DNA of 54,054 nt from Anaerolineae bacterium (GTDB lineage Bacteria > Chloroflexota > Anaerolineae > Anaerolineales > Villigracilaceae). The position numbers and the translations under genes are program-made. How positions within the stretch are numbered: the first letter of the stretch is position 1; each line of letters begins with the position of its first letter. The DNA lies in contig QEXW01000001.1 of assembly GCA_003130845.1 (NCBI GenBank), positions 1-54,054 of the forward strand, in the 5' to 3' direction. Of the stretch, positions 5,191 to 34,153 are shown one piece after another. Below the pieces are notes generated by a model, which saw only the letters and a program-made list of their open reading frames with translations, did not search any database and was not told the DNA's origin.

Positions 5191-7329
5191 ATGATACCTC
5201 TCACTATGCAGAAATCATCTTCATTCTTCGTGGCACATTTACGCGAAAACCAACGATTACATCTCTTGGGCGCAGGTGCGCTCGTTGTCGTTTTCTTAAT
5301 TCTCTATGGCTGGCGGTGGCCAGAACAAGCGCTTTGGCTTGTCATGGCAGCATTTGGTGTCGTGCTGCCATTTTCATTTTTTTACCACAGGATTGAACGT
5401 TCTGCCTGGTCACCCCAAAAACAATATCAGGCTGCTTTGCATACCGCATTTTTGCAAGGCTGCCTGGATGTACTCCTGATTGCTTTTTTAATTCACAACA
5501 CAGGTGGGTACGATAGTCCCTTGGCATTACTTTACCTGATTACCCTAGGTTCAGTTGCCGTATTTTTTCATCCCCGTCAGATGGTCATCCTGAATTTGTG
5601 GGCCATGGCAATCTACAGCGGGCTAATGCTCTCGTATGTGCAGGGCTGGCTGACACCCTCCTATTTACCCTTACAACCACAAAATACGCTGGGATTGCCT
5701 TTTGCGCCGCTGATTTGGGTCATTTACCTGATTGCAATGACGGTCAACTGGCTGGTTATTAAACCACATGCCGACCGCATTCATTCTGCCTGGGCAGATG
5801 TTGACCAACAAAACGAATACCTTCATCAGTTACTTAGCCTGACTCGCTTAGGATTGGAACGTAGAGATTTGCCCAACTTGTACCAAACGCTTGCCGATGA
5901 AGTTCGCGTCATCTTAAATGCAGATGCCATCTACCTAACCCGCTGGGAGGAAGACAACGCACAAGTGCATCAGGGTGCCAGTTCACACCGCAGCCAACAA
6001 CCACGTCCAGCCCTTGCCCCGCTTCAAAAACACGAGGCCAGTCTCACCCTTTCCGCATTGCGAGCGGGCATCCCCTTGCTGGTCAAAGATGTCAATTGCT
6101 CGCCCTATCTTTCGCAAACAACTGCGCAACGCTTTAGCGAAACATCTTTGCTGGCGGTGCCCCTGTATGGCCTGCCTGAACATCGCTACCTGGGTGCGTT
6201 GCTGGTCGGATATACCAACCCGCATGATTTCAGCCAAACAGAAATCAAACACGCCCAACAAGTGGCTGATGTGGCCGCTTTGCTAATCTCACGCATGAGT
6301 TTGTTTCACGAAACGCAGTACCGTGCCAGTTTGCTTGAACAAATGGCGGGACAAATCACCCTATTAACGTGCGACTTGCGCCGCACGACCTTGCTGCCCT
6401 CCATCGTCGAATCGGCGCGCAGTTTGCTAGATGCCCAACGTGCCGCTTTGCACCTGTATGACCCGGTGAGTAAAAAAATGGAGTGTCGCTACTCGGTTGG
6501 CCTTTCTGAAGAGTATTTGCAGTTTATGACAGAGCATTTCGAGAAATCACCCGAGGCAGCAACCTTTCAGGAACAACGCTTCGTCCTGATACCAGACGTA
6601 GGACGCGATGAACGCACCAGCCCGATGCGCGGGATGATTGCGCGTGAACGTTTTCACGCCTACGCCGTCTTTGCGTTAGAATCCGAAGAAGGTAGCCTAG
6701 GTACGCTTTCCTTATATTGGGATGAGCCACACGCCATTACTTCGGTAGATGTCACCGTCGGCCAATTGTTTGCCCGGCGCGCAGCCGCTATGCTCCAGAG
6801 TGCAACACTGTACGAACAAGCGGCAAAAGAATCTCTGACCGATTCCTTAACCAACCTCCCCAACCGCCGTTATTTCGACCGCCGGCTCAAAGAAGAATGT
6901 GAACGTGCCAGCCGCTCTGGGCGCCCCGTTGCACTGTTGATGATTGACCTGGATGGCTTCAAAGCCATCAACGATTCGTTTGGACACGCCATCGGAGACA
7001 GCGTCATCCAGCAAATCGGAACAGCCATCAGGCAATCTATCCGTTCTACGGATATGGTTGCACGCTTCGGCGGCGATGAATTTGCGATTATCTTCCCGGA
7101 AGCCGATAAGGAAGCGGCACTGCGTCTGGCCGAAAAAATTAAGAGTGTGCTGGCTTCTACCAAACTACACCTTCCACGCGACACCCAACGCTACGTTTCT
7201 GCCAGCATAGGCATTGCGTTGTGCCCGGTAGAAAGTGATAACCCCCAAACCTTATTTGAATTGGCGGACCAGCGCATGTTCCGCGCCAAACGCACGCAAC
7301 CAGGCACAATTGTCTCAGAGGGAAAGTGA
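5191..7329 (+). CDS. Membrane diguanylate cyclase, GAF-GAF-GGDEF
   Basis: A 712-residue protein predicted to make cyclic di-GMP from GTP at the membrane. An N-terminal hydrophobic region with about six helices (roughly 28-200) is followed by two GAF-like sensor domains (about 225-365 and 395-535) and a C-terminal GGDEF domain (about 545-705). The active-site motif GGDEF is intact at 627-631. RSTD at 618-621 is in the correct place for the product-inhibition I-site, so feedback control is expected. Other conserved GGDEF-domain motifs are DSLTNLPNRRYFDRRL and DLDGFKAINDSFGHAIGD. No EAL or HD-GYP enzyme is in view. An alternative start five codons downstream (MQKSSS) cannot be excluded. Confidence 0.93.
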   Translation: MIPLTMQKSSSFFVAHLRENQRLHLLGAGALVVVFLILYGWRWPEQALWLVMAAFGVVLPFSFFYHRIERSAWSPQKQYQAALHTAFLQGCLDVLLIAFLIHNTGGYDSPLALLYLITLGSVAVFFHPRQMVILNLWAMAIYSGLMLSYVQGWLTPSYLPLQPQNTLGLPFAPLIWVIYLIAMTVNWLVIKPHADRIHSAWADVDQQNEYLHQLLSLTRLGLERRDLPNLYQTLADEVRVILNADAIYLTRWEEDNAQVHQGASSHRSQQPRPALAPLQKHEASLTLSALRAGIPLLVKDVNCSPYLSQTTAQRFSETSLLAVPLYGLPEHRYLGALLVGYTNPHDFSQTEIKHAQQVADVAALLISRMSLFHETQYRASLLEQMAGQITLLTCDLRRTTLLPSIVESARSLLDAQRAALHLYDPVSKKMECRYSVGLSEEYLQFMTEHFEKSPEAATFQEQRFVLIPDVGRDERTSPMRGMIARERFHAYAVFALESEEGSLGTLSLYWDEPHAITSVDVTVGQLFARRAAAMLQSATLYEQAAKESLTDSLTNLPNRRYFDRRLKEECERASRSGRPVALLMIDLDGFKAINDSFGHAIGDSVIQQIGTAIRQSIRSTDMVARFGGDEFAIIFPEADKEAALRLAEKIKSVLASTKLHLPRDTQRYVSASIGIALCPVESDNPQTLFELADQRMFRAKRTQPGTIVSEGK

Positions 7330-22809: not shown

Positions 22810-25800
22810 TTAGCGGTCTGAGCCACGCGAGGGGGTGCGAGCGACCCCTTCATATTCGACTTTCATCAAGACAGCACGCACGGCATAGCGGTAGTTGTAG
22901 GTATCGAGCCAGGGGACGTAGCCCTTACAGGTGAGCAGGGTCAGCCAAGTGTAGCCATCTTCTTTGAAGACCGAGAAGTCGCTAGGCAAAACAGTGCGCA
23001 TTTCGCGGACTTCATAGGTGTACCGATAGCCATCGGCATGCAAGATAATCACATTGCCCCAATAGAGTTTATCCAAATTGCGGAAGGGGCCAGGCGTGCC
23101 ATCTGCTAGGGTGACGTGCGCGGTGAGACCGGTCGTGCCAACCTGCCCTGGGAAGGTGGTGCCGGTCAGGTAGCCGGCCTGGTTGGAGAGCCAGGTCAGG
23201 TCCCAGCCATCTTCGGTGAGCGGAACGCCGGTGATGGGTAGGTTCAGGCCGAGCGAGGGGATTTCCAGCCACATGTTGCCCAGATTGGTATAGGCTTTCT
23301 CAGCAGGCTGAGCGGGCAGTTGCGTCATTCGACCAGGTGCAAAACCGGTAGCCGGCAGGGCTGCTGGGGCATTGATGGTGATTGTAGACGAAGCACCATA
23401 ATTATTAATCCCTGCTGCATCTGCTGGGTCGTACCAGCGTTCGTTGGCAAAATCGTTGTAATCTGAAAGCGATACCGGCTGTCCATTTGGCTGTGGGTCA
23501 ATCGGCAGGCTGGTCCAAGCGACATTGGCCGTGTTGGTGGCCGGAGATGGGCCAACAAAGATAGCCTGGAAGGTGATGGTGGCGGTTTGCCCTAGCGGGA
23601 AGACATCCCAAACAAAGGTGAGCGTGCGCGTGGCCGGATTGTAATTGGTGGAGGTGGGCGCCAAGCCATCGGTTTGGATGCTGCCAGGGATGAGTTCAAA
23701 GTTCAACGCCAGGACATCGGTTACCACCACATCATAGGCATCTACGCGGCTTTCAGGGGTGTGCGCAATGGAAAGCGAGAAGGTGACCGGGCTGCCAAAG
23801 GGCAGGGTGGTCGGTTGAGCGCTTTTGTCAATGCTCAAATCAGGTTCGATGATTTCGAGCGGAAGCGCAGAAGCTGCCAGCGAGCCGCCATCCCAACTCC
23901 ACAGAACCGTGTTGTTTAGACCGCCGACTCCGTTGACGTTTGCAGCAATATCTAGCACCACGACTTCGTAGGTGATGAGCAGCGTTTCGCTCTGAATGGC
24001 CGATGGGTTGGTCACATCGCCAAAATCGAAGGTGATGCGGCGGCCTTGGTTGACCGGCAAGGGGTTGCCCAATGGTTCAGCCTGGACGGTGGGATTGAGC
24101 GGGTCGTTACAAGAATCGGCAAAGCCGCCGAGCAGAGTGGTGGTCAGATTGCCGCCATCCACGCTGACACAGCTGACGAAGGCCAGGCCCGAGTCGAGGA
24201 TGTCGAGCGCTTGCAGATTGGTCAGGGTGGCGCCGGCGGGAACATCCAGGCTAATCTGATAGGTGACCACTTCGCCAATCAGGACGCGCGGCAGGGGCGG
24301 CGGCGCGGGGTGAGAGGGGTCATCGGGGTCAACGTCAATATCGCCGCCGATGATGATTTTTCCATTGGTAGATGCCACGATGTCAATGTCGTCATCGCTG
24401 TCGGTCAGGCCGGGGATGGCGTCATCCATGACGGTCACGCTGTTGATGAGCGTTGGCCCAACGGCAGTGTCATTGACGCGCACGGTGACGGTAATGGTGG
24501 TGGAAGCACCAGAGGCCAGGCTGATGCCCGTCCATTCGAGCGTGCTGCCGGAAATGCTGGATGGAGCAGGCACGGCGCTCTGGAAGGTGACTTCGGCAGG
24601 CAGGGTATCCGTCACGCGCACGGCGGTCAGGTCTTGTAAGCCAACGTTTTGAACATCAATGGTGTAGGTGATAACCGAGCCGGGAGCAACAGTGGTCAGG
24701 CCGTCGTCTTTCTCAACCGAGAGAATGGCGTCGCGGTCGCTATCAGTATCGCTGTTGTCGGAGGGGTCGGTTTCGATGACGCCAGTCGGCGGGGTGACGG
24801 TGACGGTATTGTTGAGTGTGCCGGTGGCTGCCGCAGCGATGTTTGCATTGACGGTGTAGGTGATGGTGGACCCTACCGGCATACTCACCATATTGGTGAA
24901 GTTGGTGGCGATGAAGCCACCCGAACCACTGCAGGTAGCCCCACCGGTGGTGACACACGTCCATTCCCAGCTGGCAATTTGGGCTGGAAGGTTATCTGTG
25001 ACGGTAGCGCCGCCCACATCTGCCGGGCCGTCATTGCGAACCACAATGGTGTAGGTCAGCGTGCCGCCGGGCAGGTAGTAGCCGATGCCATCATCTTTGG
25101 TCACGGTCAGGTCAACCCGTTGCTGGTTGTAGACACCGAAGTCCACACGGAATTCGGTGGTTGAGCCATTGGCAGGATTGGTGGTCTGTTCTGCTGCCGG
25201 CGTGAGGGCAAAGACGCCGCTTTGGATGTAGCCGCCGGGGAAGCCCAGGCTGCCGACTTCCGTGCCGTTGTCGTCATCATCCACGGTGACGGCATCCGGG
25301 TTGGGGGCAGGTTCGTATGCGCCACCGCCGGTGCTGGAGTAGAAGTCACGCAGCGCGCCTGCGCCCTGGAAGTTGCCCTCCGGCAAGCGGACGATGTAAC
25401 TCCCTTGTGGTAGACCGGTGAAGGTGTAGAGGCCGCCGCCTGCGGTGGTGGTTGTGGCGAGCAGGGTCGAGCCATCGGCAGACCACAGTTGCACAGTCAC
25501 GCCATCGATGCCGGTTTCGCCGCCATCCAGCAGGCCGTTGTTGTTCGCATCGTTCCAGACCTGGTTGCCAAGGCGGATGGTGTAGAAGCCGAAGTCCACG
25601 GTCATGTTGGCGCGGGCATCGGGTTGGCCCTGTATGCCGCCATCCAGGTCGGTTTCGCCGGTGGGTTCGACCGGGCCCAAGCCGAGGGTGACTGGAGAGG
25701 ATGCCACCGCGCCGGGCAGGCTGCCGAACAGGTTCAATTGGCCGTTGTCATCAGAATCGGTATCGTTATCCGGGTCAGGGGCGGCGATTTCGGTCAGCGA

Positions 25801-28800
25801 GCCGTCATTGTTGCGTGTCGTGCCAGAGGACCAGTAGCCGTTGAGGACGGTCGCAAAGTTGGAGGCTGGCAGGACAACGATGTAATTGCCAGAAGCCAAG
25901 TTATTGAACAGGTAGTAGCCGCCGTTGGCGGTGATGGTCGTTGCCAGCGCCGCGCCGGTGGGGTTGCCAGAACCATCGGCGGCGTAGAGTTGCACCATCA
26001 CGCCGTCAATGCCGACTTCGCCGGCGTCAATTTGGCGGTTGTTGTTGGTATCGTACCAGACACGGTTGCCGAGCGCGTATTGCGGGATGAAGCCGAAGTC
26101 AACGGTCGGGTCGTGGGTGGAGCCGCTGGCATGGGTGACGGTGTTGTTGTTGAGCGCGCCGGTCGAGCCGGGGGTGAGCGTGAAGACGGCAGAAGAGACC
26201 GTGCCTGCGCCAGTGCCAAGGCCGTTATCGTTGTTGTCGGCATTGGTGTTCGGGTTGGCGCTGTCGGCGGCGTTGTAGGTGTCAATGGTGCTAGTGGTGG
26301 AGGACGGTGCATCGACTAGCACGATGTAGTTGCCTTGCGGCAGGCCGTCGAAGCGGTAATTGCCACCCGCATCGGTGACAACGCCACCAGGGGCATCATC
26401 CGCCGTGCCGAGGATGCCATCCGGGCCGACGAAGATTTCGGTCACGCCATCGGAGGCATATAAGTAGACGGTAATACCGGGCAGGGGCGCATCAAGCGGG
26501 CCGCCATCGTAGTTACCGTTCTCATCGCCATCGGTATAGACCAGGTTGCCGACCGAGACGCGGTAGAAGCCGAAGTCGACGGTCATGTTGGCGCGGCCAT
26601 CGGGCTGGGTGCCCTGGCCGAGACCCGTTTCCAGGTCGGTTTCGCCGGCCGGTTCGGTCAGACCGGTGGGGCCAAGCGTGACCGGCAGGGAAATGACCTG
26701 CCCAGTGAAGACGCCGGAGGTCTGGAGTGTGCCGTTGTCGTCCGAGTCCTGGTCATTATCGGGATCGGGGGCAGCGGCTTCGGTGATGGCACCTGTTCCG
26801 TTCAGGGTCGTGCCCGACGACCAGTAGCCATCCAGCACGCCGCCGGCAGCAAAGTTAGAAACAGGCAGAGCGACAATGTATTCGCCGGGCAGCAGGTTGT
26901 CGAACAGGTAATAGCCACCGTTGGCAGTGGTGTCGGTCGCTATGAAGACGTAGCTTCCCGTGCCATCGTTGCGGTACAGGTTCACCACCACTCCGTCCAC
27001 GCCGAGTTCTGTGCCAAAGTCAATTTGGCTGTTGTTGTTGGTATCGAACCAGACGCGGTTGCCGAGGGCGTAGGCAAAGACGAAACCGAAGTCAACCGTT
27101 GGGTCGGTGGTGGTGCCATTGGCATTGGTCACGGTGATGTTGGCAGCCACTTCCCCGGCTTGCATGGTGAGTTGATTGGAAGAAACTACCCCACCCGCTG
27201 TGCCAAGGCCGTTGTCGTTGTTGTCGGTATTGGTATCGGGGTCTGCCGTATCAGCAGGGGCGTAGGCATCAATGGTGCTAATCATGCCGCTGGGGGCGGT
27301 GACGCGCACGATGTAATTCCCCGCTGGCTGACCGCTAAAGAGATACAGCCCGCCGATGGAGGTGGTCGTTGTGGCCAAGACGGTCGAGCCATCGCCGGAG
27401 AGCAGTTCCACCGTCACGCCGCTGAGCACGTTATCGGTGCCGCTATCGAAGTTTCCATTGACGTTAATGTCTTCAAAGACAAGGTTGCCTATCTCGGTGC
27501 GGTAGAAGCCAAAGTCCACAGTCAGGTTGGCGCGGTTATCGGGTTGCGCGCCTTGACCCACGCCGCTTTCCAAATCGGTTTCGCCGGTTGGTTCAGCAGC
27601 CCCCCCGAGCGTAACCGCACGCGAAAGCACCGCGCCGCTGAACGCCCCAGCGGTCTGGAGCGTGCCGTTGTCGTCCGAATCGACATTATTGTCTGGGTCA
27701 GGCGCGAGAGTTTCAGTGATTGTTCCAGTGTTGGCACGAGTGGTTTGCGATGACCAGTAGCCTTCTAAGACGCCGCCTGAAGCGAAGTTGGAGACCGGCA
27801 GGACAACGACGTAATCACCAGGCAATAGGAAATCAAAATGATAGTAACCGCCGCCGGAAGTGGTGTCCGTTGCCAAGACGGGGCCGGTGGGGTTGCCGCT
27901 CCCATCTGCCGCATACAGCTGAACGATGACCCCATTCACCCCAACTTCACCCGAATCGATTTGGGCATTGTTATTGGTGTCAAACCAGACGCGGTTGCCG
28001 AGGGCGTAGTACTGTTCCAGGCCGCCGGTTTCGCCATCGCTGTCGCGGTAGTCGTTCACGCCGCCGGAGCCATCGCGCTCATCGGGATTGGCGCCGGGCA
28101 GGGAGGTCCAGGTCAGGTTGGCGGTGTTGGTGACGGTAGTGTCGCCAGTCAGGAAGGGCGGCGGGCCGGGCGGGCTGTTGACCGTGACCTGGTAGGTGAG
28201 CGTGGCGGTGCTGGCTAACGGCAGGGTGGCGCAGGTCCAGGTCAGCGTAGGCGCGCCGGTATCATCGGCCACACAACCCGCCGAAGCGGTGATGGAGCCA
28301 GGAACGTATGTCAGGACATTCGGGATGGTATCGGTAATCGTCAGGTCACGGGCATCCGCTGTGCTGGAGGCCAGGTGAGAGACGGTGATGGTGTAGGTGA
28401 CGGTCTGCCCGTAGAGCCAGGATGTGTCGTTGGCGGCTTTCTGGATGTCCAGTTCTGGCTCACGCAAGGTGATGGGGGTAGTGTCATTGGCCGAGCCGCC
28501 GGTCCACGAGACGGTTGCGGAGTTGGTAAGCGTTGTGCCGTTCTGGTTACCGGCCACATTGAGAACGCGCGCCACCACGCGGACGAGGAAGGCATTGTTA
28601 TTGGCCACATTATCGGCAGCGGTGGTGGTGTTGCCAAAGGCCAGGGTCAGGTCGCCGCCTGAGCCGCCGGGGGCCGTGACGGTGGGCGCGGGGAGCGTGC
28701 CGTTGTAATCTGCCACCAACACGCCGCCACTGGCAGCCGCTGTGGTAATCACCTGGTGGCTGACGTATTCCAGGCCAAGCGGCAGGTCATCCACCACCTG

Positions 28801-31800
28801 TAGGTTAGGCGTCAGCCCTTCGGGCAACGTGACGAGGATATCGAATGTGACCTGTTCGCCAATCACATAGAAGGTCGGGTTGGGCGCCAGTTTGTCAATT
28901 TGCGGCACAGAGAGCGGCGTATTGACCGTGGAAGTCGCGGCGTAATCATCCACTGCGCCACCCGGGCCGTCTGATCCGTCGCGTTCGCCGGTGTCCGAAC
29001 CAGATGTACCAGGAGTGGAAGAGCCAGTGGGGTTGCTGGTGGTGCCGTTGGGACCTGGCAGGGAGGTGTAGACCAGGTTGGCCGTGTTGGGGATGACGTA
29101 GCCGACCGGCGCGGTGGCGGCAACCGTTCCGGTGATGGTGATAGTGATGGTTTGACCGGGGTCGAGACAGGTGGCCGTGAAGGTGAGCGTGCTGCCGCTA
29201 AAAGAACCACCGTTGTGGCTGAAGGCGGTCGTCCCGGCGCCGTTGCCCACGCAGGTTGGGCCTTGCGAGGCGGTCACGCCAGAGACGGTCAGACCGGTCA
29301 GATTGGCGTCGAAGGTGTCTGTCAGGGTCAGGTCGAAGGCGGTGGAGCGGTTGGCGCCGGAGGCGGAGGTAATCGTCAGGGTGTAGGTAATCGGGTCGCC
29401 GGCGTCGGTGGGGATGGTCGCCAGGGTTTTGGCGAGGCTGAGGAAGGGTTCGGCAACAATGGTCTGCACCGGGTTCGAGTTCGGGCCGTTTTGCGTCCCG
29501 CCAATGAACACGCTAAAGGTGTTATTGTGAGGGTCGCCAGCGTCATTGCTCCCGGCGGCGGAATTGTTGACGAGGGCGTTGAACTCGATGATGACGTATT
29601 CGGCATCGGCGTCGTTGTCGTTGTTGGTCAGTGTGCCGAGTTTGAAGAAGGGGTCGGTGCCGTTGCCGTAGACATCAGGGTCTGCCGTAAGCGAGTTCGA
29701 CGACCCCACATTCGGGTCGGGCAGGGCGTAGGTGGGCGTAACCAGGGTTGGGTCGTTGCCATTGACCCAGGGGCCAGAACCAAACGAGCCGCTGCCGAGC
29801 GCCAGGCCAAGCGTGCTGCCGGTCGGTTCGGTGGAGGCAATCGGTGAACCATTAGAAAGCAGCGCCAGGCGGGCGGTGCCGTCATCCAGATAGTTCAGGC
29901 CACCAGGCAGGTTATCCCGAATCTGGAAGTTGAGGCTGGTGCCTTCGGGCAACTGCACCACCATGCGGTAACGGATGATTTCACCAATGGCAACCCGCTG
30001 GGTGCCGCTGACCAGGCCGGTATGGGCTTCGGAGGTGGAGGCCAGGAATTTCTGTGGCTGCACGCTGTTGATGGTGAGGTTGACCGCGCCTTGGCTGGCG
30101 TAATCGTTGAGCGCGCCGCCCACGCCATCGGCGCCGGTGCGCTCATCGGAATCGGTGTTGAAGGAGGAACGGTCATTGACATCGCCGGGCAGGCTGGTCC
30201 AGCGTGAGATGGCCGTGTTGGTGATTGTTTGCCCCGGCGCGGCGGAGTAGTTGACCGTTGCCTGGAAGGTGATGGTACACGATTGCCCGGGCTGGAATAG
30301 GCCGCCCGAACCGGTCAGGGTAGGCGCGCCACTATCATTAAGCGTGAGCGGGGTTGCCGCGCTGCACGCACCGAGGGCCAGCGTGCCGGGGAGGTAAGTC
30401 AGCGTGGCGGGTAAGGTATCGCTAAACGAGACATCGTGCGCAGTGGTAGAACCCGCCGCCGGGTTGGTGAGCGTGATGGTAAAGGTGACGGTATCGCCCG
30501 CGTCGGCGGTGGCGGGGGCAACGGCTTTGGCGGTGTTGATGACTGGCTCGATGATGGTGATGTTGGGCGCGGAGACGGCGGGCAGGCTGTCGTTCAGCCA
30601 GGTGAGCGCGGCTTCGTTGTTGCGCAAGCCGCCGCCCTGATTGCCGACCACGTTGATGACAACGGCGCGGTAGGTGAGGGTGATGGTTTCGACTACGTTA
30701 TTATCCCGATTGGTGTTGACCAATGTACCCAGGTCGAACGCAATGCGGCGGCCATCCTGCCCGCCAAAGGCTGAAATGAGCGGGTTGCTGCCGGCGCCTG
30801 TGCCGGGGGTACAGTTGGTACAGTTGCCCCCCGCGTTGAAGGTCATCACGCTGCTGTAAATGCCGTCATCCCCCGCTCCGGCGCCATCGGTATCGGGATT
30901 GGAGACGACCACCGATTGTAGGTCAACAAAGGCCAGTCCGGCATCGAGGGTATCTACAATTTGAGCGTTGGGCAGCGTGCCTTCCGGCGCGGTCAGGGTG
31001 ACGGTGTAGGTGACGAATTCTCCGATGACTGCCTGGGTGTTAGAGTTTTGGGGTGTGTTGATTTCCGTGCCAACCAGGGTTTTGGCGAGCAGCGGGTCAT
31101 CCGTAGTCACCGTTGCGTCATCGGATTGCGGCTGTGGCAGAAAATTGGGGCCGCCTTCGGAGCCAGAATAGTTCACGAGCGTGGCGGTATTGGGGTATGT
31201 GCCGGGCGAAACGTCGCTGCGCATGCGCAGGTCATAGGTGATGACAATCACATTGTTGCCCAGGTTGGGGTCGTGCGCCGAACCAACGCCTTGACCCACC
31301 GGGTCTACCAGTTTAATGCCTGCGCCGAACAGGTTGCCAGGCGTGGCGGGCGTATCGGCGGGCGTGGTGTATGAAATCGGCCCAGAGCCGTTGCCATAAT
31401 AGATTTGCAGGTTAATGCTGTTTGGGTCGCCAGCGATGGGATATTCGAAGCCGAGCGCATCGAAGGTATCTTGAATGACAATATCGAACGCGCCGTTGAT
31501 GCCCGTGCCTTCGTTGACCAGGAAAATTGCAAAAGTCACCAGGTCGCCGGCATCCACGCCGCTCAGGTCACTATCAATCGGGGTGGCCGTGAGCAGGGCC
31601 GAATTAATCGTCCCGCTCCAGCGTGGGCCTGGAGAACCTGGCGCGGTGAACGCAATCGGCAGGGGCGGGGTGAAGGTCGGCGCGGGGTTGTCGGTGGCAA
31701 CCACGCTCTTGGTGGTGGTCATAACCGGCGAGGTGTAGGTGATTTCCACAATGGAGGCCGCTTCGCCGGGCTGGCCGTTGGTCGAGCCTTCCGTCACATA

Positions 31801-34005
31801 GGCTTGGTTGGTCAGGTGCAGGTTATCGGCAAAGGGGTCATTGCGAACGGTAACGGTGAACAGAATATCAATGACGGAGAAGGTGTTGTTGGGGCCATCG
31901 TAATTGCCATACGACCAGCGTACCCAGTTGCTCGTGCCGTTGTTGCTGACGGTCGGGGTGTTGGCGGCTGGCAATCCGTCATAGGTATCCGCCGGACCAA
32001 GACAGGAGGTTCCCGCTGCTGGGACGCCACAGACTGAATCAATGTGGCTGGTTACTTCGGTCGCGCTAAAAATGGGCAGAGGCAGGTAATCGGTGAGGAC
32101 CAGGTTCTCGAAATCGCTGGTGACGAGGGTATAGGTCAGGCGGAAGGTGACGGTATCGCCCGCGCCCACGCGCACCGGGGTTGAAAAGGAAGTGTTGCCA
32201 TTGACGGCATACACAGCCTTGGTCAGCGCGCCGCGCCCAATGGTAACGCTGGCACTGGAGCCATCCGGCTCGGTAAAACCGGTCGGCGTGGAGGCATCGG
32301 TCGTGGAAAGAATGCGCCCATTGACAAACTCGGTGTTGTTCAGCACATCCCCCTGGTCCACGCTGGGGTCACCGGAGGGGAAGGTATCGCTAAAGTTTTC
32401 CTGAATGACCGCGCGAAAAACGACACGGGCTGTGGTGGGACCGTCATTGTAGCCGCTGCACGCTGGGTCACCGACTACGCCGCCGGGCGGCACACAGCCA
32501 CCGATGAGACGACCATTGCCAGAGCGCAGAATCATTTCATCAGAAATACGGAAGGTGATGGTGGTCGTGCCATCGTTAGGGGCCGGGTCGGCGGGGGTGT
32601 AGTTGGGGCTGACGGTGTAGTTGGCAGCGTTGAACGCGCCAGAGGAGTTGTAGGAGGCGGGATTGCCGATGATTTGGAGCGTAGGCGTAAAGGTGGTATC
32701 AAAGCGCTGTCCGTCGGAAATGGTATCCGTCAGCACCACCTGGTCGAAGACGAAGAAATCGGAAATCTGGATGTCAATGACATATTCGAGCGTGCGTCCG
32801 GGCGCAGGCTGACCGCCGCCCACCACGCTGACGCCCTTTTGGGTGGCGATGGATTTGGGCGTGAGGGTATGTTCACAACCGGCTGGATTCTGCGTGAAGG
32901 TCGCGCCGGTATCGCGCGGGTCAAGCGGCGTCCATGTTCCTCCGCTGCTGGCATTGTTGCAGGAGAGGGCATCATCGCCGGTGGAGGGGTTGATGACCGA
33001 GCCGCCGCCCGCCTCACGCAACGGGATGTAGTACGAGAAGGTCATACTGACCGTGCCGCTGACCGAGGCGAAATTACAAGAAAGCGTGCCACCGGGGGTA
33101 GCGGTTGAGGGCGTGGAGCATGTTGCGCCGCCGGGGGTCGTGCCAATCAGCGAGACAAATTGCATATTCGCCGGCAACACATCCGTCAAGTTAAAGGCGG
33201 TCATGGTCTGTCCGGGGGCAATTTGCGCCGTGACGGTGTACTGACGAGGGAAGTTCGGCCCGGTGGCGGTTTCGTCTTCTGGCCCGTTGTAGGATTTGGA
33301 AAGCGTGAACAGGGTGGGAGTGACGCTGCCATTCACCCAGCTGCTAAAGGTCACACTGGGGTCGTCACCGCAACACCAGTCGTTGAGCGGGGTGTAGCCG
33401 AATTGATAGCCACCGCGCGCCTGGATGGTAAGCGGCGTGCCGAGGTCGGCCAGGTTGCTCATTGAAACAGTGATGTTCGCCGTCAGCGGGGGCTGGTCGG
33501 GCGTGAACGAACCAAAGGGCAGGCGCAAGGCCACCAGCGTATCGCCTGCGTTGCCACACACCTGCACCGGGTTGCCGGTATTGTTGACCATGTAGGGATG
33601 GTTGACACAGGTCACGCCGCCGGAGCCGGGGAAGGTCAGCACGGTGTTTTCGATGGACGAACCCAAATACGTCGCACTAACGAAGGTCAGGCCGTCGAGC
33701 GGCGGATTGGTGTTCTGGTTCCCATCGGCCCCGTTCCGAGGAATAATCAGGTCAATTAAGGGGCCATAACCAGGGTCGTTCAAATCCGGGTTATCAAAAG
33801 TCACCGTAAAATTAACAGTGCTCCCGATGAAAGCTTGCGCTGGCACATTCAGAGAAACAGCAGGGGGTTGGGCAAGCAACAAGCGCTCCTGGGGTGCCGC
33901 CACAGCCTCTGTCACAGGCTGCCACCAGGCAGTCTGTGCCAAAAGCAGAAACAACACCAGGAGTGCCCGGAGAAAAAAGAAACGATTGCGTGAAAAAAAT
34001 ATCAT
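22810..34005 (-). CDS. Giant exported DUF11/SdrD-B repeat protein with LPATGF and C-terminal sortase domain
   Basis: A 3,731-residue protein in one frame. A signal segment (about 10-37, FFFLRALLVLFLLLAQTAWW) is followed by about ten DUF11-type modules, six SdrD-B-type modules (about 1998-2959) with DTNNN calcium-loop-like turns, and four further DUF11-type modules. LPATGF, a canonical LPxTG sorting motif, is at 3550-3555 (bases 23341-23358). Instead of the usual hydrophobic helix and basic tail, a sortase domain follows (about 3578-3720): His3630 (GLTAHV), Cys3693 (LLTCKGY) and Arg3706 (YNYRYAV) are the expected triad. The start at 34005 has GGGAG eight bases upstream; an in-frame ATG at 34056 would lengthen the signal. 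It is a single-gene unit behind a structured leader. Surface location is inferred; the sortase may process its own LPATGF or other substrates. Confidence 0.9.
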   Translation of the reverse strand: MIFFSRNRFFFLRALLVLFLLLAQTAWWQPVTEAVAAPQERLLLAQPPAVSLNVPAQAFIGSTVNFTVTFDNPDLNDPGYGPLIDLIIPRNGADGNQNTNPPLDGLTFVSATYLGSSIENTVLTFPGSGGVTCVNHPYMVNNTGNPVQVCGNAGDTLVALRLPFGSFTPDQPPLTANITVSMSNLADLGTPLTIQARGGYQFGYTPLNDWCCGDDPSVTFSSWVNGSVTPTLFTLSKSYNGPEDETATGPNFPRQYTVTAQIAPGQTMTAFNLTDVLPANMQFVSLIGTTPGGATCSTPSTATPGGTLSCNFASVSGTVSMTFSYYIPLREAGGGSVINPSTGDDALSCNNASSGGTWTPLDPRDTGATFTQNPAGCEHTLTPKSIATQKGVSVVGGGQPAPGRTLEYVIDIQISDFFVFDQVVLTDTISDGQRFDTTFTPTLQIIGNPASYNSSGAFNAANYTVSPNYTPADPAPNDGTTTITFRISDEMILRSGNGRLIGGCVPPGGVVGDPACSGYNDGPTTARVVFRAVIQENFSDTFPSGDPSVDQGDVLNNTEFVNGRILSTTDASTPTGFTEPDGSSASVTIGRGALTKAVYAVNGNTSFSTPVRVGAGDTVTFRLTYTLVTSDFENLVLTDYLPLPIFSATEVTSHIDSVCGVPAAGTSCLGPADTYDGLPAANTPTVSNNGTSNWVRWSYGNYDGPNNTFSVIDILFTVTVRNDPFADNLHLTNQAYVTEGSTNGQPGEAASIVEITYTSPVMTTTKSVVATDNPAPTFTPPLPIAFTAPGSPGPRWSGTINSALLTATPIDSDLSGVDAGDLVTFAIFLVNEGTGINGAFDIVIQDTFDALGFEYPIAGDPNSINLQIYYGNGSGPISYTTPADTPATPGNLFGAGIKLVDPVGQGVGSAHDPNLGNNVIVITYDLRMRSDVSPGTYPNTATLVNYSGSEGGPNFLPQPQSDDATVTTDDPLLAKTLVGTEINTPQNSNTQAVIGEFVTYTVTLTAPEGTLPNAQIVDTLDAGLAFVDLQSVVVSNPDTDGAGAGDDGIYSSVMTFNAGGNCTNCTPGTGAGSNPLISAFGGQDGRRIAFDLGTLVNTNRDNNVVETITLTYRAVVINVVGNQGGGLRNNEAALTWLNDSLPAVSAPNITIIEPVINTAKAVAPATADAGDTVTFTITLTNPAAGSTTAHDVSFSDTLPATLTYLPGTLALGACSAATPLTLNDSGAPTLTGSGGLFQPGQSCTITFQATVNYSAAPGQTITNTAISRWTSLPGDVNDRSSFNTDSDERTGADGVGGALNDYASQGAVNLTINSVQPQKFLASTSEAHTGLVSGTQRVAIGEIIRYRMVVQLPEGTSLNFQIRDNLPGGLNYLDDGTARLALLSNGSPIASTEPTGSTLGLALGSGSFGSGPWVNGNDPTLVTPTYALPDPNVGSSNSLTADPDVYGNGTDPFFKLGTLTNNDNDADAEYVIIEFNALVNNSAAGSNDAGDPHNNTFSVFIGGTQNGPNSNPVQTIVAEPFLSLAKTLATIPTDAGDPITYTLTITSASGANRSTAFDLTLTDTFDANLTGLTVSGVTASQGPTCVGNGAGTTAFSHNGGSFSGSTLTFTATCLDPGQTITITITGTVAATAPVGYVIPNTANLVYTSLPGPNGTTSNPTGSSTPGTSGSDTGERDGSDGPGGAVDDYAATSTVNTPLSVPQIDKLAPNPTFYVIGEQVTFDILVTLPEGLTPNLQVVDDLPLGLEYVSHQVITTAAASGGVLVADYNGTLPAPTVTAPGGSGGDLTLAFGNTTTAADNVANNNAFLVRVVARVLNVAGNQNGTTLTNSATVSWTGGSANDTTPITLREPELDIQKAANDTSWLYGQTVTYTITVSHLASSTADARDLTITDTIPNVLTYVPGSITASAGCVADDTGAPTLTWTCATLPLASTATLTYQVTVNSPPGPPPFLTGDTTVTNTANLTWTSLPGANPDERDGSGGVNDYRDSDGETGGLEQYYALGNRVWFDTNNNAQIDSGEVGVNGVIVQLYAADGSGNPTGPVLATDTTSGGGYYHFDFLLPGDYVVVLPVSNFASGGVLEGYWSSQTTRANTGTITETLAPDPDNNVDSDDNGTLQTAGAFSGAVLSRAVTLGGAAEPTGETDLESGVGQGAQPDNRANLTVDFGFYRTEIGNLVFEDINVNGNFDSGTDNVLSGVTVELLSGDGSTVLATTTTSIGGLYLFSGQPAGNYIVRVTAPSGMISTIDAYAPADTADPDTNTDNNDNGLGTAGGVVSSNQLTMQAGEVAANITVTNANGTTTDPTVDFGFVFAYALGNRVWFDTNNNSQIDFGTELGVDGVVVNLYRNDGTGSYVFIATDTTANGGYYLFDNLLPGEYIVALPVSNFAAGGVLDGYWSSGTTLNGTGAITEAAAPDPDNDQDSDDNGTLQTSGVFTGQVISLPVTLGPTGLTEPAGETDLETGLGQGTQPDGRANMTVDFGFYRVSVGNLVYTDGDENGNYDGGPLDAPLPGITVYLYASDGVTEIFVGPDGILGTADDAPGGVVTDAGGNYRFDGLPQGNYIVLVDAPSSTTSTIDTYNAADSANPNTNADNNDNGLGTGAGTVSSAVFTLTPGSTGALNNNTVTHASGSTHDPTVDFGFIPQYALGNRVWYDTNNNRQIDAGEVGIDGVMVQLYAADGSGNPTGAALATTITANGGYYLFNNLASGNYIVVLPASNFATVLNGYWSSGTTRNNDGSLTEIAAPDPDNDTDSDDNGQLNLFGSLPGAVASSPVTLGLGPVEPTGETDLDGGIQGQPDARANMTVDFGFYTIRLGNQVWNDANNNGLLDGGETGIDGVTVQLWSADGSTLLATTTTAGGGLYTFTGLPQGSYIVRLPEGNFQGAGALRDFYSSTGGGAYEPAPNPDAVTVDDDDNGTEVGSLGFPGGYIQSGVFALTPAAEQTTNPANGSTTEFRVDFGVYNQQRVDLTVTKDDGIGYYLPGGTLTYTIVVRNDGPADVGGATVTDNLPAQIASWEWTCVTTGGATCSGSGGFIATNFTNMVSMPVGSTITYTVNANIAAAATGTLNNTVTVTPPTGVIETDPSDNSDTDSDRDAILSVEKDDGLTTVAPGSVITYTIDVQNVGLQDLTAVRVTDTLPAEVTFQSAVPAPSSISGSTLEWTGISLASGASTTITVTVRVNDTAVGPTLINSVTVMDDAIPGLTDSDDDIDIVASTNGKIIIGGDIDVDPDDPSHPAPPPLPRVLIGEVVTYQISLDVPAGATLTNLQALDILDSGLAFVSCVSVDGGNLTTTLLGGFADSCNDPLNPTVQAEPLGNPLPVNQGRRITFDFGDVTNPSAIQSETLLITYEVVVLDIAANVNGVGGLNNTVLWSWDGGSLAASALPLEIIEPDLSIDKSAQPTTLPFGSPVTFSLSIAHTPESRVDAYDVVVTDVLALNFELIPGSIQTDGLAPTSTNYNPATRTLTFVWDVFPLGQTATITFQAIFVGPSPATNTANVAWTSLPIDPQPNGQPVSLSDYNDFANERWYDPADAAGINNYGASSTITINAPAALPATGFAPGRMTQLPAQPAEKAYTNLGNMWLEIPSLGLNLPITGVPLTEDGWDLTWLSNQAGYLTGTTFPGQVGTTGLTAHVTLADGTPGPFRNLDKLYWGNVIILHADGYRYTYEVREMRTVLPSDFSVFKEDGYTWLTLLTCKGYVPWLDTYNYRYAVRAVLMKVEYEGVARTPSRGSDR
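25130..28015 (-). repeat. Three tandem two-module SdrD-B super-repeats
   Basis: Six SdrD-B modules alternate between two types. Type A begins ALGNRVWFDTNNN at about 27982-28007, 27045-27072 and 26050-26080; type B begins GNLV or GNQV at about 27470, 26534 and 25555. The A+B unit recurs every 930-995 bases, with long stretches conserved at the DNA level, such as the segments near 25590, 26573 and 27511. This shows expansion by duplication of a two-module unit. Confidence 0.85.
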
Positions 34006-34153
34006 AAAAGAGTCTCCCGGCATATTTAGATTGATCCCGCTGGGCCGGTTTCGCACTGACTCCCTAGTGGCTTAGCCCCAATTCAAGGCAGCGACCAATT
34101 CGGCCAACTAGTTCACCGTCTCCCAAACTATGTTCAGTTTCTTTTCCATTATA
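34006..34153 (-). promoter_or_regulatory. Promoter and structured 5' leader of the giant gene
   Basis: TATAAT on the minus strand (34148-34153) gives a predicted start near 34141 and a leader of about 135 bases. The RNA has several complementary segments: GGCC/GGUC around a five-base loop, CUAG(U)UGG with CCACUAG, and CACU with AGUG. Two blocks, GGGAGACGGTGAA and GGAGTCAGTGCGAAACCGG, faintly resemble the cobalamin riboswitch core and B12 box in the right order and spacing, but other core elements do not match. I call it an unidentified structured leader. Confidence 0.45.

Follow-up and report, generated by a model that had tools for sequence, protein, structure and literature searches.

Can a sortase and the signal that it recognises work within a single protein chain? 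To our knowledge, descriptions of covalent protein sorting place the enzyme and its substrate in two different molecules. The question is raised by a window of 54,054 nucleotides (positions 1 to 54,054 of contig QEXW01000001.1, assembly GCA_003130845.1) from an Anaerolineae bacterium of the order Anaerolineales, whose genome measures 3.77 Mb in 159 contigs. The reverse strand of the window encodes a secreted protein of 3,731 amino acids, hereafter the giant, in which the motif LPATGFAP is followed by a sortase domain. With a probability of roughly 0.6, we read the giant as a self-sorting adhesin switched by cyclic di-GMP (c-di-GMP), whose sortase would cut its own chain or a sister chain between T and G of LPxTG and attach it to peptidoglycan or to another giant.

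Sorting signal and sortase in one polypeptide

The open frame of the giant runs from an ATG at 34005 to the stop at 22810 (3,748 amino acids if an upstream GTG is used). Pfam and NCBIfam models match DUF11, RrgB_K2N_iso_D2 and SdrD_B-type domains followed by a sortase at the end, and LPATGFAP begins at residue 3,550, towards the C-terminus (Table 1). By hydropathy, the segment from the motif to the C-terminus contains no transmembrane (TM)-like stretch; among 126 distinct modules scanned, one was flagged in two others (loci L168 and L169). The original prediction, that LPATGF at 23341-23358 is followed by His, Cys and Arg in sortase order, without a membrane helix and in a sortase domain that ends the protein, was reproduced in all these points.

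The C-terminal domain scores 73-80 bits against PF04203 (cut-off 26.6) and also passes TIGR01076 (40.3 and 44.3 bits against 39.35). The catalytic residues are present in 30 of 30 aligned rows, and the intact triad makes the fused domain a putative transpeptidase; an inactive sortase-like domain is unsupported, since the triad is kept. By sequence, the nearest solved structures are class C sortases (E 1e-13). The NCBIfam class cut-offs were missed, with 40.5 bits (44.9 on the C-terminal segment) against 160 for the class C model NF033745, 36.5 against 165 for class D, 36.7 against 160 for class E and 39.2 against 166 for class F, and the class A model was not among the matches at E 0.001 (C-terminal segment) or E 1.

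The motif extends past LPATGF as GFAP and is shared by a large conserved family. The genome of 3.77 Mb contains LPxTGFAP a single time and the reversed control pattern not at all. Related loci were retrieved with patterns from the barrel only, not from the motif, although the score ranking still favours full modules. After removal of seven chance matches under 10 bits from 92 rows, 85 modules at named loci were left, 81 of which read [LIMPA]PxTGFAP and the others IPVTGFPP, LPSSGFAP, IPPTGFTP and LPATGFTP. LPSSGFAP is the motif of the member in a cultured relative, Leptolinea sp. HRD-7 (L070). The x among the 81 is A in 24, E in 14, V in 10, K in 8, D in 6 and S in 6, and more rarely N (4), R (3), Q (2), G (2), L (1) or F (1). 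When the window module was aligned with 83 of the 84 reference modules (L046 was left out), P-x-[TS]-G-F lay upstream of the barrel in all 84 rows, at a distance of 20-23 residues in the 80 rows with a recognised first strand. In this alignment the entropy is 0 at P, G, F and the second P, 0.09 bits at T, which varies once, 0.26 at A, 0.83 at the first position (L in 71 rows, I in 9) and 3.07 at x; the eight residues preceding the motif range from 2.9 to 3.6 bits. The invariant sites use up to four synonymous codons. Because P, G, F and the second P are invariant while x is free and the codons vary synonymously, the motif is not a degenerate linker. The conservation across the 84 modules refutes the degenerate linker that the original prediction had offered as an alternative; as judged from its pattern of substitution, selection preserves it in the manner of a sorting signal. 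The proposal that enzyme and substrate motif are one polypeptide is thus upheld, with an intact triad and a motif under strict protein-level selection beside the barrel.

The search of related genomes that had been suggested returned many cases of LPxTG followed by a sortase; homologues that have both the motif and the sortase domain do exist. The nearest named relative, with 92% identity, comes from an Anaerolineales metagenome-assembled genome (L041). The C-terminal module was matched in 97 of 100 genomes of the same family, the weak matches including separate sortases. The best 80 of 322 relatives in the genome collection represent 78 distinct loci, all labelled Chloroflexota or its genera except L094 (Acidithiobacillus), which is probably misbinned. 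Across 400 genomes of the phylum, among the matches listed, every one that starts at the motif (model positions 1-3) comes from the order of the window, and those from outside the order start at model position 7 or later. Genome G263 contains two divergent fused members with IPDTGY (L149) and IPQTGF (L150), although its matches started past the motif. Together with ten members from genomes G622 and G626 (L192, L193, L200, L201, L207, L211, L215, L217, L219 and L221), 12 divergent members keep PxTG.

Motif and triad are both present in 121 of 133 distinct rows. The 12 other rows include two truncated frames (L146 and L104), two with an altered first motif position and an intact triad (L169 and L189), and L157, which reads ILDTGFAP and also has an intact triad. 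L147, L148, L153, L154 and L160 have no such motif and are separate sortases or belong to other lineages (LPGTG in L153 was not counted, another frame probably coding there). L158 and L159, the only two full fused rows without T-G, have lost it (GGFGFAP) along with the catalytic Arg, which is replaced by Trp. These two are near-identical paralogues, so their losses count as one event. L157, L158 and L159 each lie no more than about 9 kb from a canonical fused gene; L158 and L159 adjoin canonical giants and can be regarded as natural dead copies. Two fused sortase genes stand close together at seven loci (L053, L056, L068, L082, L099, L104 and L109), in five of which one fused gene has IPVTGF[AP]P.

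A tree of 90 sortase cores was built with the motif columns left out (4 short rows of 94 were dropped; the label 'none' denotes rows with no motif close to the barrel). All 63 rows with a motif near the barrel fall into one group with SH-aLRT support of 98, which holds four further rows (L147 and L157-L159), and the trait changes three times on the tree against a mean of 23.4 with shuffled labels, within the limits set by a small number of columns, a fast method and forks left open.

Predicted position of the motif on the sortase barrel

The last stalk domain, the motif and the sortase were modelled together with AlphaFold2. The predicted local distance difference test score (pLDDT) of the barrel is 84-97 by block, and 93 in the block following the motif; with the 84 rows the module reaches a mean of 94.6 and LPATGFAPGR 97. 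In a Foldseek search against the PDB the top 50 matches were all sortases (best E 8.8e-10), and VIA-align superposed the model on sortases with Z 15-18 and a root-mean-square deviation (rmsd) of 1.9-4.0 over 129-165 residues. The structural check that had been proposed for the C-terminal region therefore returned a predicted sortase barrel.

The superpositions on class A and E sortases start mostly at model residue 29 or later, and those on class C enzymes at residues 1-7, ahead of LPATG (residues 11-15). Thus residues 5-179 align to 52-214 of 2w1j (Z 15.7, rmsd 2.8, 148 aligned), 7-180 to 46-206 of 3tbe (Z 17.4, rmsd 2.9, 144 aligned) and 5-178 to 78-239 of 3o0p (Z 16.3, rmsd 2.6, 146 aligned). 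The alignment to Bacillus anthracis SrtA (2kw8) also starts early (7-181 to 53-210, Z 15.8, rmsd 3.3, 155 aligned), and an N-terminal appendage of that enzyme is reported to regulate access (PMC8361268). According to a crystallographic report, the lids of Streptococcus pneumoniae SrtC1 (Asp58-Pro59-Trp60) and group B Streptococcus (GBS) SrtC1 (Asp49-Pro50-Tyr51) are docked at the catalytic Arg (PMC3166054). If the first aligned stretch is ungapped, LPA of the window motif would overlie Asp-Pro-Trp of the SrtC1 lid; in the model, LPATGFAPGR is apparently docked in the groove about where class C sortases keep the lid, an approximate position. A DP(W/F/Y) lid ahead of the barrel is absent from the 84 rows, whose arm reads LPxTGFAP or departs from it by single changes.

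This placement brings up the main rival explanation, in which LPxTGFAP is a lid that is never cut: a pseudo-substrate would guard the Cys and open for an outside substrate, and the giant would merely display an active sortase. The arm is docked at a pLDDT of 97, the lid-bearing class C sortases align from model residues 1-7 on, class C lids are described as filling the groove and needing displacement (PMC3166054, PMC5640630), and the F, A and P that follow the G are almost as conserved as LPxTG. We regard an uncut lid as rather unlikely. A lid need not keep T-G with a free x, and the class C lids described so far read DP(W/F/Y); one lineage has lost the motif and the Arg jointly; and no outside substrate with the motif was found in the genome or in 25 relatives.

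A second one-chain form also speaks against a lid. In families f97 and f100 of the same order, whose C-terminal sortases sit on other branches of the tree, one layout is common to six of seven proteins examined (L202, the 2,230-residue frame of L226, L227, L228, L229 and L230): an N-terminal hydrophobic segment, cargo, [LI]PxTG, two TM-like stretches joined by a short loop, a linker and the sortase, the TM stretches being called by hydropathy only. Their motifs are LPGTG, LPETG, IPVTG or IPNTG, and the loop carries basic residues in the five proteins printed. The f97/f100 motif is not a lid, because it sits about 125-190 residues ahead of the estimated barrel start with the helices between. 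This form looks as if a classical LPxTG protein had been fused to a membrane sortase, and motif and barrel would both lie outside, linked via a membrane hairpin. This suggests that the hairpin was lost on the way to the window form, or that events ran the other way round, the tree being compatible with both.

Short sortases only were found in family f98 (L198, L199 and L205); L198 and L199 start with a lipobox-like signal (LACAGC and LSAC) and are possibly lipoprotein sortases. At L226 (genome G481, contig 134), seven sortase frames, several of them N-terminally membrane-anchored, form a run around the 2,230-residue giant that ends in a sortase.

Candidate partners and acceptors, and probable control by c-di-GMP

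PF04203 matches two proteins in the genome, the giant and a separate sortase of 298 amino acids with an N-terminal hydrophobic segment (L001, contig 11), and frames of similar size (299-470 amino acids) are listed in 24 of 25 relatives. Such a membrane sortase might cut LPATG in trans, the fused domain being a passenger or having another job. We consider this very unlikely: the fused domain retains its triad and keeps the signal at 20-23 residues, which is hard to explain for a passenger. The separate membrane sortases at L160, L154, L204, L205, L206, L209 and L210 share a VVLP[SG]GHTPP segment between membrane anchor and barrel, perhaps another lid.

No PF00746 LPxTG anchor exceeds the Pfam cut-off in the genome, where seven weak matches lie at E 0.2-2.4. 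Among 25 relatives the extended motif occurs at 58 places (reversed control pattern, 12), 55 of which are the start of a fused module; the other three are unrelated frames, two short stop-to-stop (L154 and L155) and one transporter-like (L156). Hence no motif-bearing protein without the enzyme was found in these relatives by a search for this motif and no other sorting motif, a shorter pattern being too unspecific for a substrate search.

As to the acceptor, seven matches to PF00905 over the cut-off indicate that wall-synthesis transpeptidases are present in the genome, which favours peptidoglycan. The original prediction had also mentioned a polymer or surface sheet, an option to which the pilin-like stalk domains and the class C-like sortase lend indirect support. 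In such a pilus-like polymerisation, which differs from the preferred reading in the acceptor only, enzyme and pilin would share one chain and the LPxT end of one giant would be joined to a Lys of the next. The class C enzymes as closest solved sequences (E 1e-13), stalk matches to isopeptide-forming fimbrial and pilin-backbone models and the existence of neighbouring fused genes fit this explanation, which we nevertheless hold to be unlikely. The last stalk domain has no invariant Lys in 28 rows (from 30 loci; L025 and L031 were left out), and 62 loci have no widely shared downstream partner gene. Dedicated partner genes were rejected: the top downstream families occur in just 18 of the 62 loci and resemble ordinary synteny.

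The 5' leader of the giant matches the c-di-GMP-II riboswitch model RF01786 with 32.8 bits (E 3.1e-5 in 501 nucleotides). In the family, RF01786 was found at E 0.01 or better at 59 places in 36 of 61 genomes, 3 of the 59 (in 2 of the 61 genomes) passing the gathering score, and in none of 14 control genomes. In all 13 regions chosen by coordinates (L251-L263), the aptamer stands 2-157 nucleotides ahead of a fused frame of 912-6,052 amino acids that ends in [LI]PxTGF[AT]P and a sortase. It precedes 13 of the 36 listed fused frames of at least 1,500 amino acids, the window included, against a chance of about 0.0001 per frame. In a 14-row alignment, whose rows were selected by the Rfam model itself, 11 of 15 predicted pairs change on both sides and the conserved core is present. 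A strict riboswitch core pattern matched the window only and none of 39 fused genes with upstream sequence; the Rfam model found the rest. Two further regions are less clear: the sole sortase frame of L264 is short, and L265 extends up to the end of its region. Most of the 20 other aptamer places examined precede proteins with signal-like N-termini, many of them running off the region, and some may also head fused genes. The 6,052-residue giant at L263 (genome G057, contig 47) is the largest of the fused giants listed.

As the homology and covariation suggest, c-di-GMP probably controls synthesis of the giant by way of a class II riboswitch. Such control would tie the giant to the attached or biofilm state. 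Class II switches of Clostridioides difficile are reported to turn on sortase-dependent adhesins (PMC6366702), and by this parallel a role of the giant in the attached state is likely. The same window encodes a GAF-GGDEF diguanylate cyclase (5191-7326, forward strand) and a bacterial small signal recognition particle RNA gene (RF00169, 34309-34407, forward strand, 65.5 bits). Two terminator-like sites, one per strand, lie within 301 bases near the stop codon of the giant, against a mean of 0.4 in shuffles.

Table 1. Features of the giant gene and its flanks, in window coordinates.
Feature	Position	Strand	Basis
c-di-GMP-II riboswitch-like aptamer RF01786 in the 5' leader, 29 nucleotides before the ATG	34035..34132	-	Rfam model
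Secreted giant, 3,731 amino acids: signal peptide, DUF11/isopeptide-type and SdrD_B-type stalk, LPATGFAP, sortase	22810..34005	-	Open reading frame and profile searches
Likely signal peptide, first 37 residues	33895..34005	-	Sequence, hydrophobic stretch; inferred
DUF11/RrgB_K2N_iso_D2-type (isopeptide-forming fimbrial) stalk domains, approximate extent	28105..30531	-	Profile matches
SdrD_B-type stalk domains, approximate extent	25054..27495	-	Profile matches
Additional DUF11-type domains, the last stopping just short of the sorting motif	23488..24723	-	Profile matches
LPATGFAP sorting signal, with the T-G bond as predicted cut site	23335..23358	-	Sequence, alignments
Docked arm linking signal to barrel	23269..23334	-	AlphaFold2, pLDDT 89-97 in its 10-residue blocks
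Sortase domain PF04203	22867..23268	-	Pfam, fold comparison
Catalytic His codon	23116..23118	-	Kept in 30/30 aligned rows
Catalytic Cys codon	22927..22929	-	Kept in 30/30 aligned rows
Catalytic Arg codon	22888..22890	-	Kept in 30/30 aligned rows
Terminator-like stem-loop right behind the stop codon	22762..22789	-	Terminator scan

Proposed mechanism and known systems

In the mechanism that we propose, c-di-GMP would switch synthesis through the putative class II aptamer. The giant would be exported by its signal peptide and fold into a DUF11/SdrD_B stalk with the sortase behind it, the LPATG of the linker resting in the sortase groove at about the position of a class C lid. The sortase Cys would attack the bond between T and G, either within the same chain or in a sister copy, and form a thioester with the new C-terminal Thr of the giant. 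An amine acceptor, most likely a peptidoglycan precursor and possibly a Lys of another giant, would then take over the giant. The sortase, now beginning with GFAP and without a membrane anchor, would be the leaving group and serve a single time.

The outcome would differ if the cut ends stayed together. The giant would then be a stored thioester, an acyl-enzyme kept reactive and able to couple to whatever surface amine it encounters, with a likeness in the thioester-domain adhesins. Since the model shows GFAP and the arm docked, the leaving group might stay in place and be ligated again. Sortase thioesters normally hydrolyse, and this appears to us the most improbable of the explanations weighed.

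Self-sorting is preferred because signal and enzyme are co-inherited in two architectures, the signal is docked in one of them according to the model, no other bearer of the motif was found and wall enzymes are present. Several observations weigh against it. Cleavage, thioester, acceptor and single use are steps that we infer; the conservation of FAP past the G and the docked arm would equally fit a lid that is never cut; one single-use enzyme per substrate is costly; and the separate membrane sortase could also cut the signal. The aptamer of the window scores under the gathering threshold (32.8 against 53.5 bits), 20 of the 36 listed fused frames lack a match to the riboswitch model, 3 more being impossible to judge, and the 843-residue frame of L226 has a C-terminal sortase in which no LPxTG motif was found. 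Finally, in an engineered GBS SrtC1 with IPNTG in the lid position, that segment is reported to be disordered (PMC3166054).

On a wider scale, we lean slightly towards natural self-sorting being widespread in Anaerolineales, in two forms, one retaining the helix of the classical signal and a membrane helix of the sortase, and one helix-less with LPxTG at the lid site. In both, a disposable enzyme would sever itself as it attaches the giant to the envelope or to other giants, in many cases under c-di-GMP riboswitch control. If so, the anchoring enzyme can be supplied by the surface protein itself, and Anaerolineales gain a candidate c-di-GMP-controlled adhesin. The family would also offer a simple system for studying how sortase lids control access, and possibly a ready-made self-ligating fusion tag.

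Wall-anchored adhesins of the MSCRAMM (microbial surface components recognizing adhesive matrix molecules) or Sdr type combine a signal peptide, an SdrD_B-type stalk and LPxTG towards the C-terminus, and use a separate sortase. In contrast, the window giant lacks the hydrophobic helix and basic tail and has the sortase itself after the motif, whereas the f97 and f100 proteins keep the helix and the sortase comes after it. C. difficile CD630_28310 (CD2831) and CD630_32460 are presumably not fused to their sortase either. These two are described as sortase-dependent adhesins under class II c-di-GMP riboswitches (PMC6366702, PMC6447587).

Class C sortases (S. pneumoniae SrtC1, 2w1j; GBS SrtC1, 3tbe and 3rbk) are the best neighbours by sequence and among the best by fold. 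Like the window giant, they have an N-terminal arm over the groove and partner domains of fimbrial type; they differ in having a DP(W/F/Y) lid and separate chains for enzyme and pilin, where the window has an LPxTGFAP arm and a single secreted chain. The GBS SrtC1 lid mutant 3rbj, in which KDPYS of the lid is replaced by IPNTG as a mimic of bound substrate, comes close to the natural layout of the family; it differs in carrying Cys184Ala, in a motif disordered in the crystal and in having no substrate protein fused (PMC3166054).

The sortase, LPxTG, the stalk domains and the riboswitch are each known, and their union in one chain is the new element. No natural LPxTG-sortase fusion was found by targeted searches of the open-access literature, subscription papers and preprints lying outside that scope; a Chloroflexus protein with an N-terminal sortase-like region, from a 2006 paper, is described with a different arrangement (PMC1586193). 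The original prediction of an undescribed system stands, within that scope, as regards a natural precedent and not as regards the parts, all of which are known, or the one-chain principle, for which engineered fusions exist. In these self-cleaving constructs (Mao; BISOP), sortase, motif and cargo share one chain, and the fused sortase is reported to cleave in cis at the correct site (PMC2901362). There the sortase is N-terminal of the cargo and the cargo leaves; in the window the order is cargo-LPxTG-sortase, and the cargo would be transferred.

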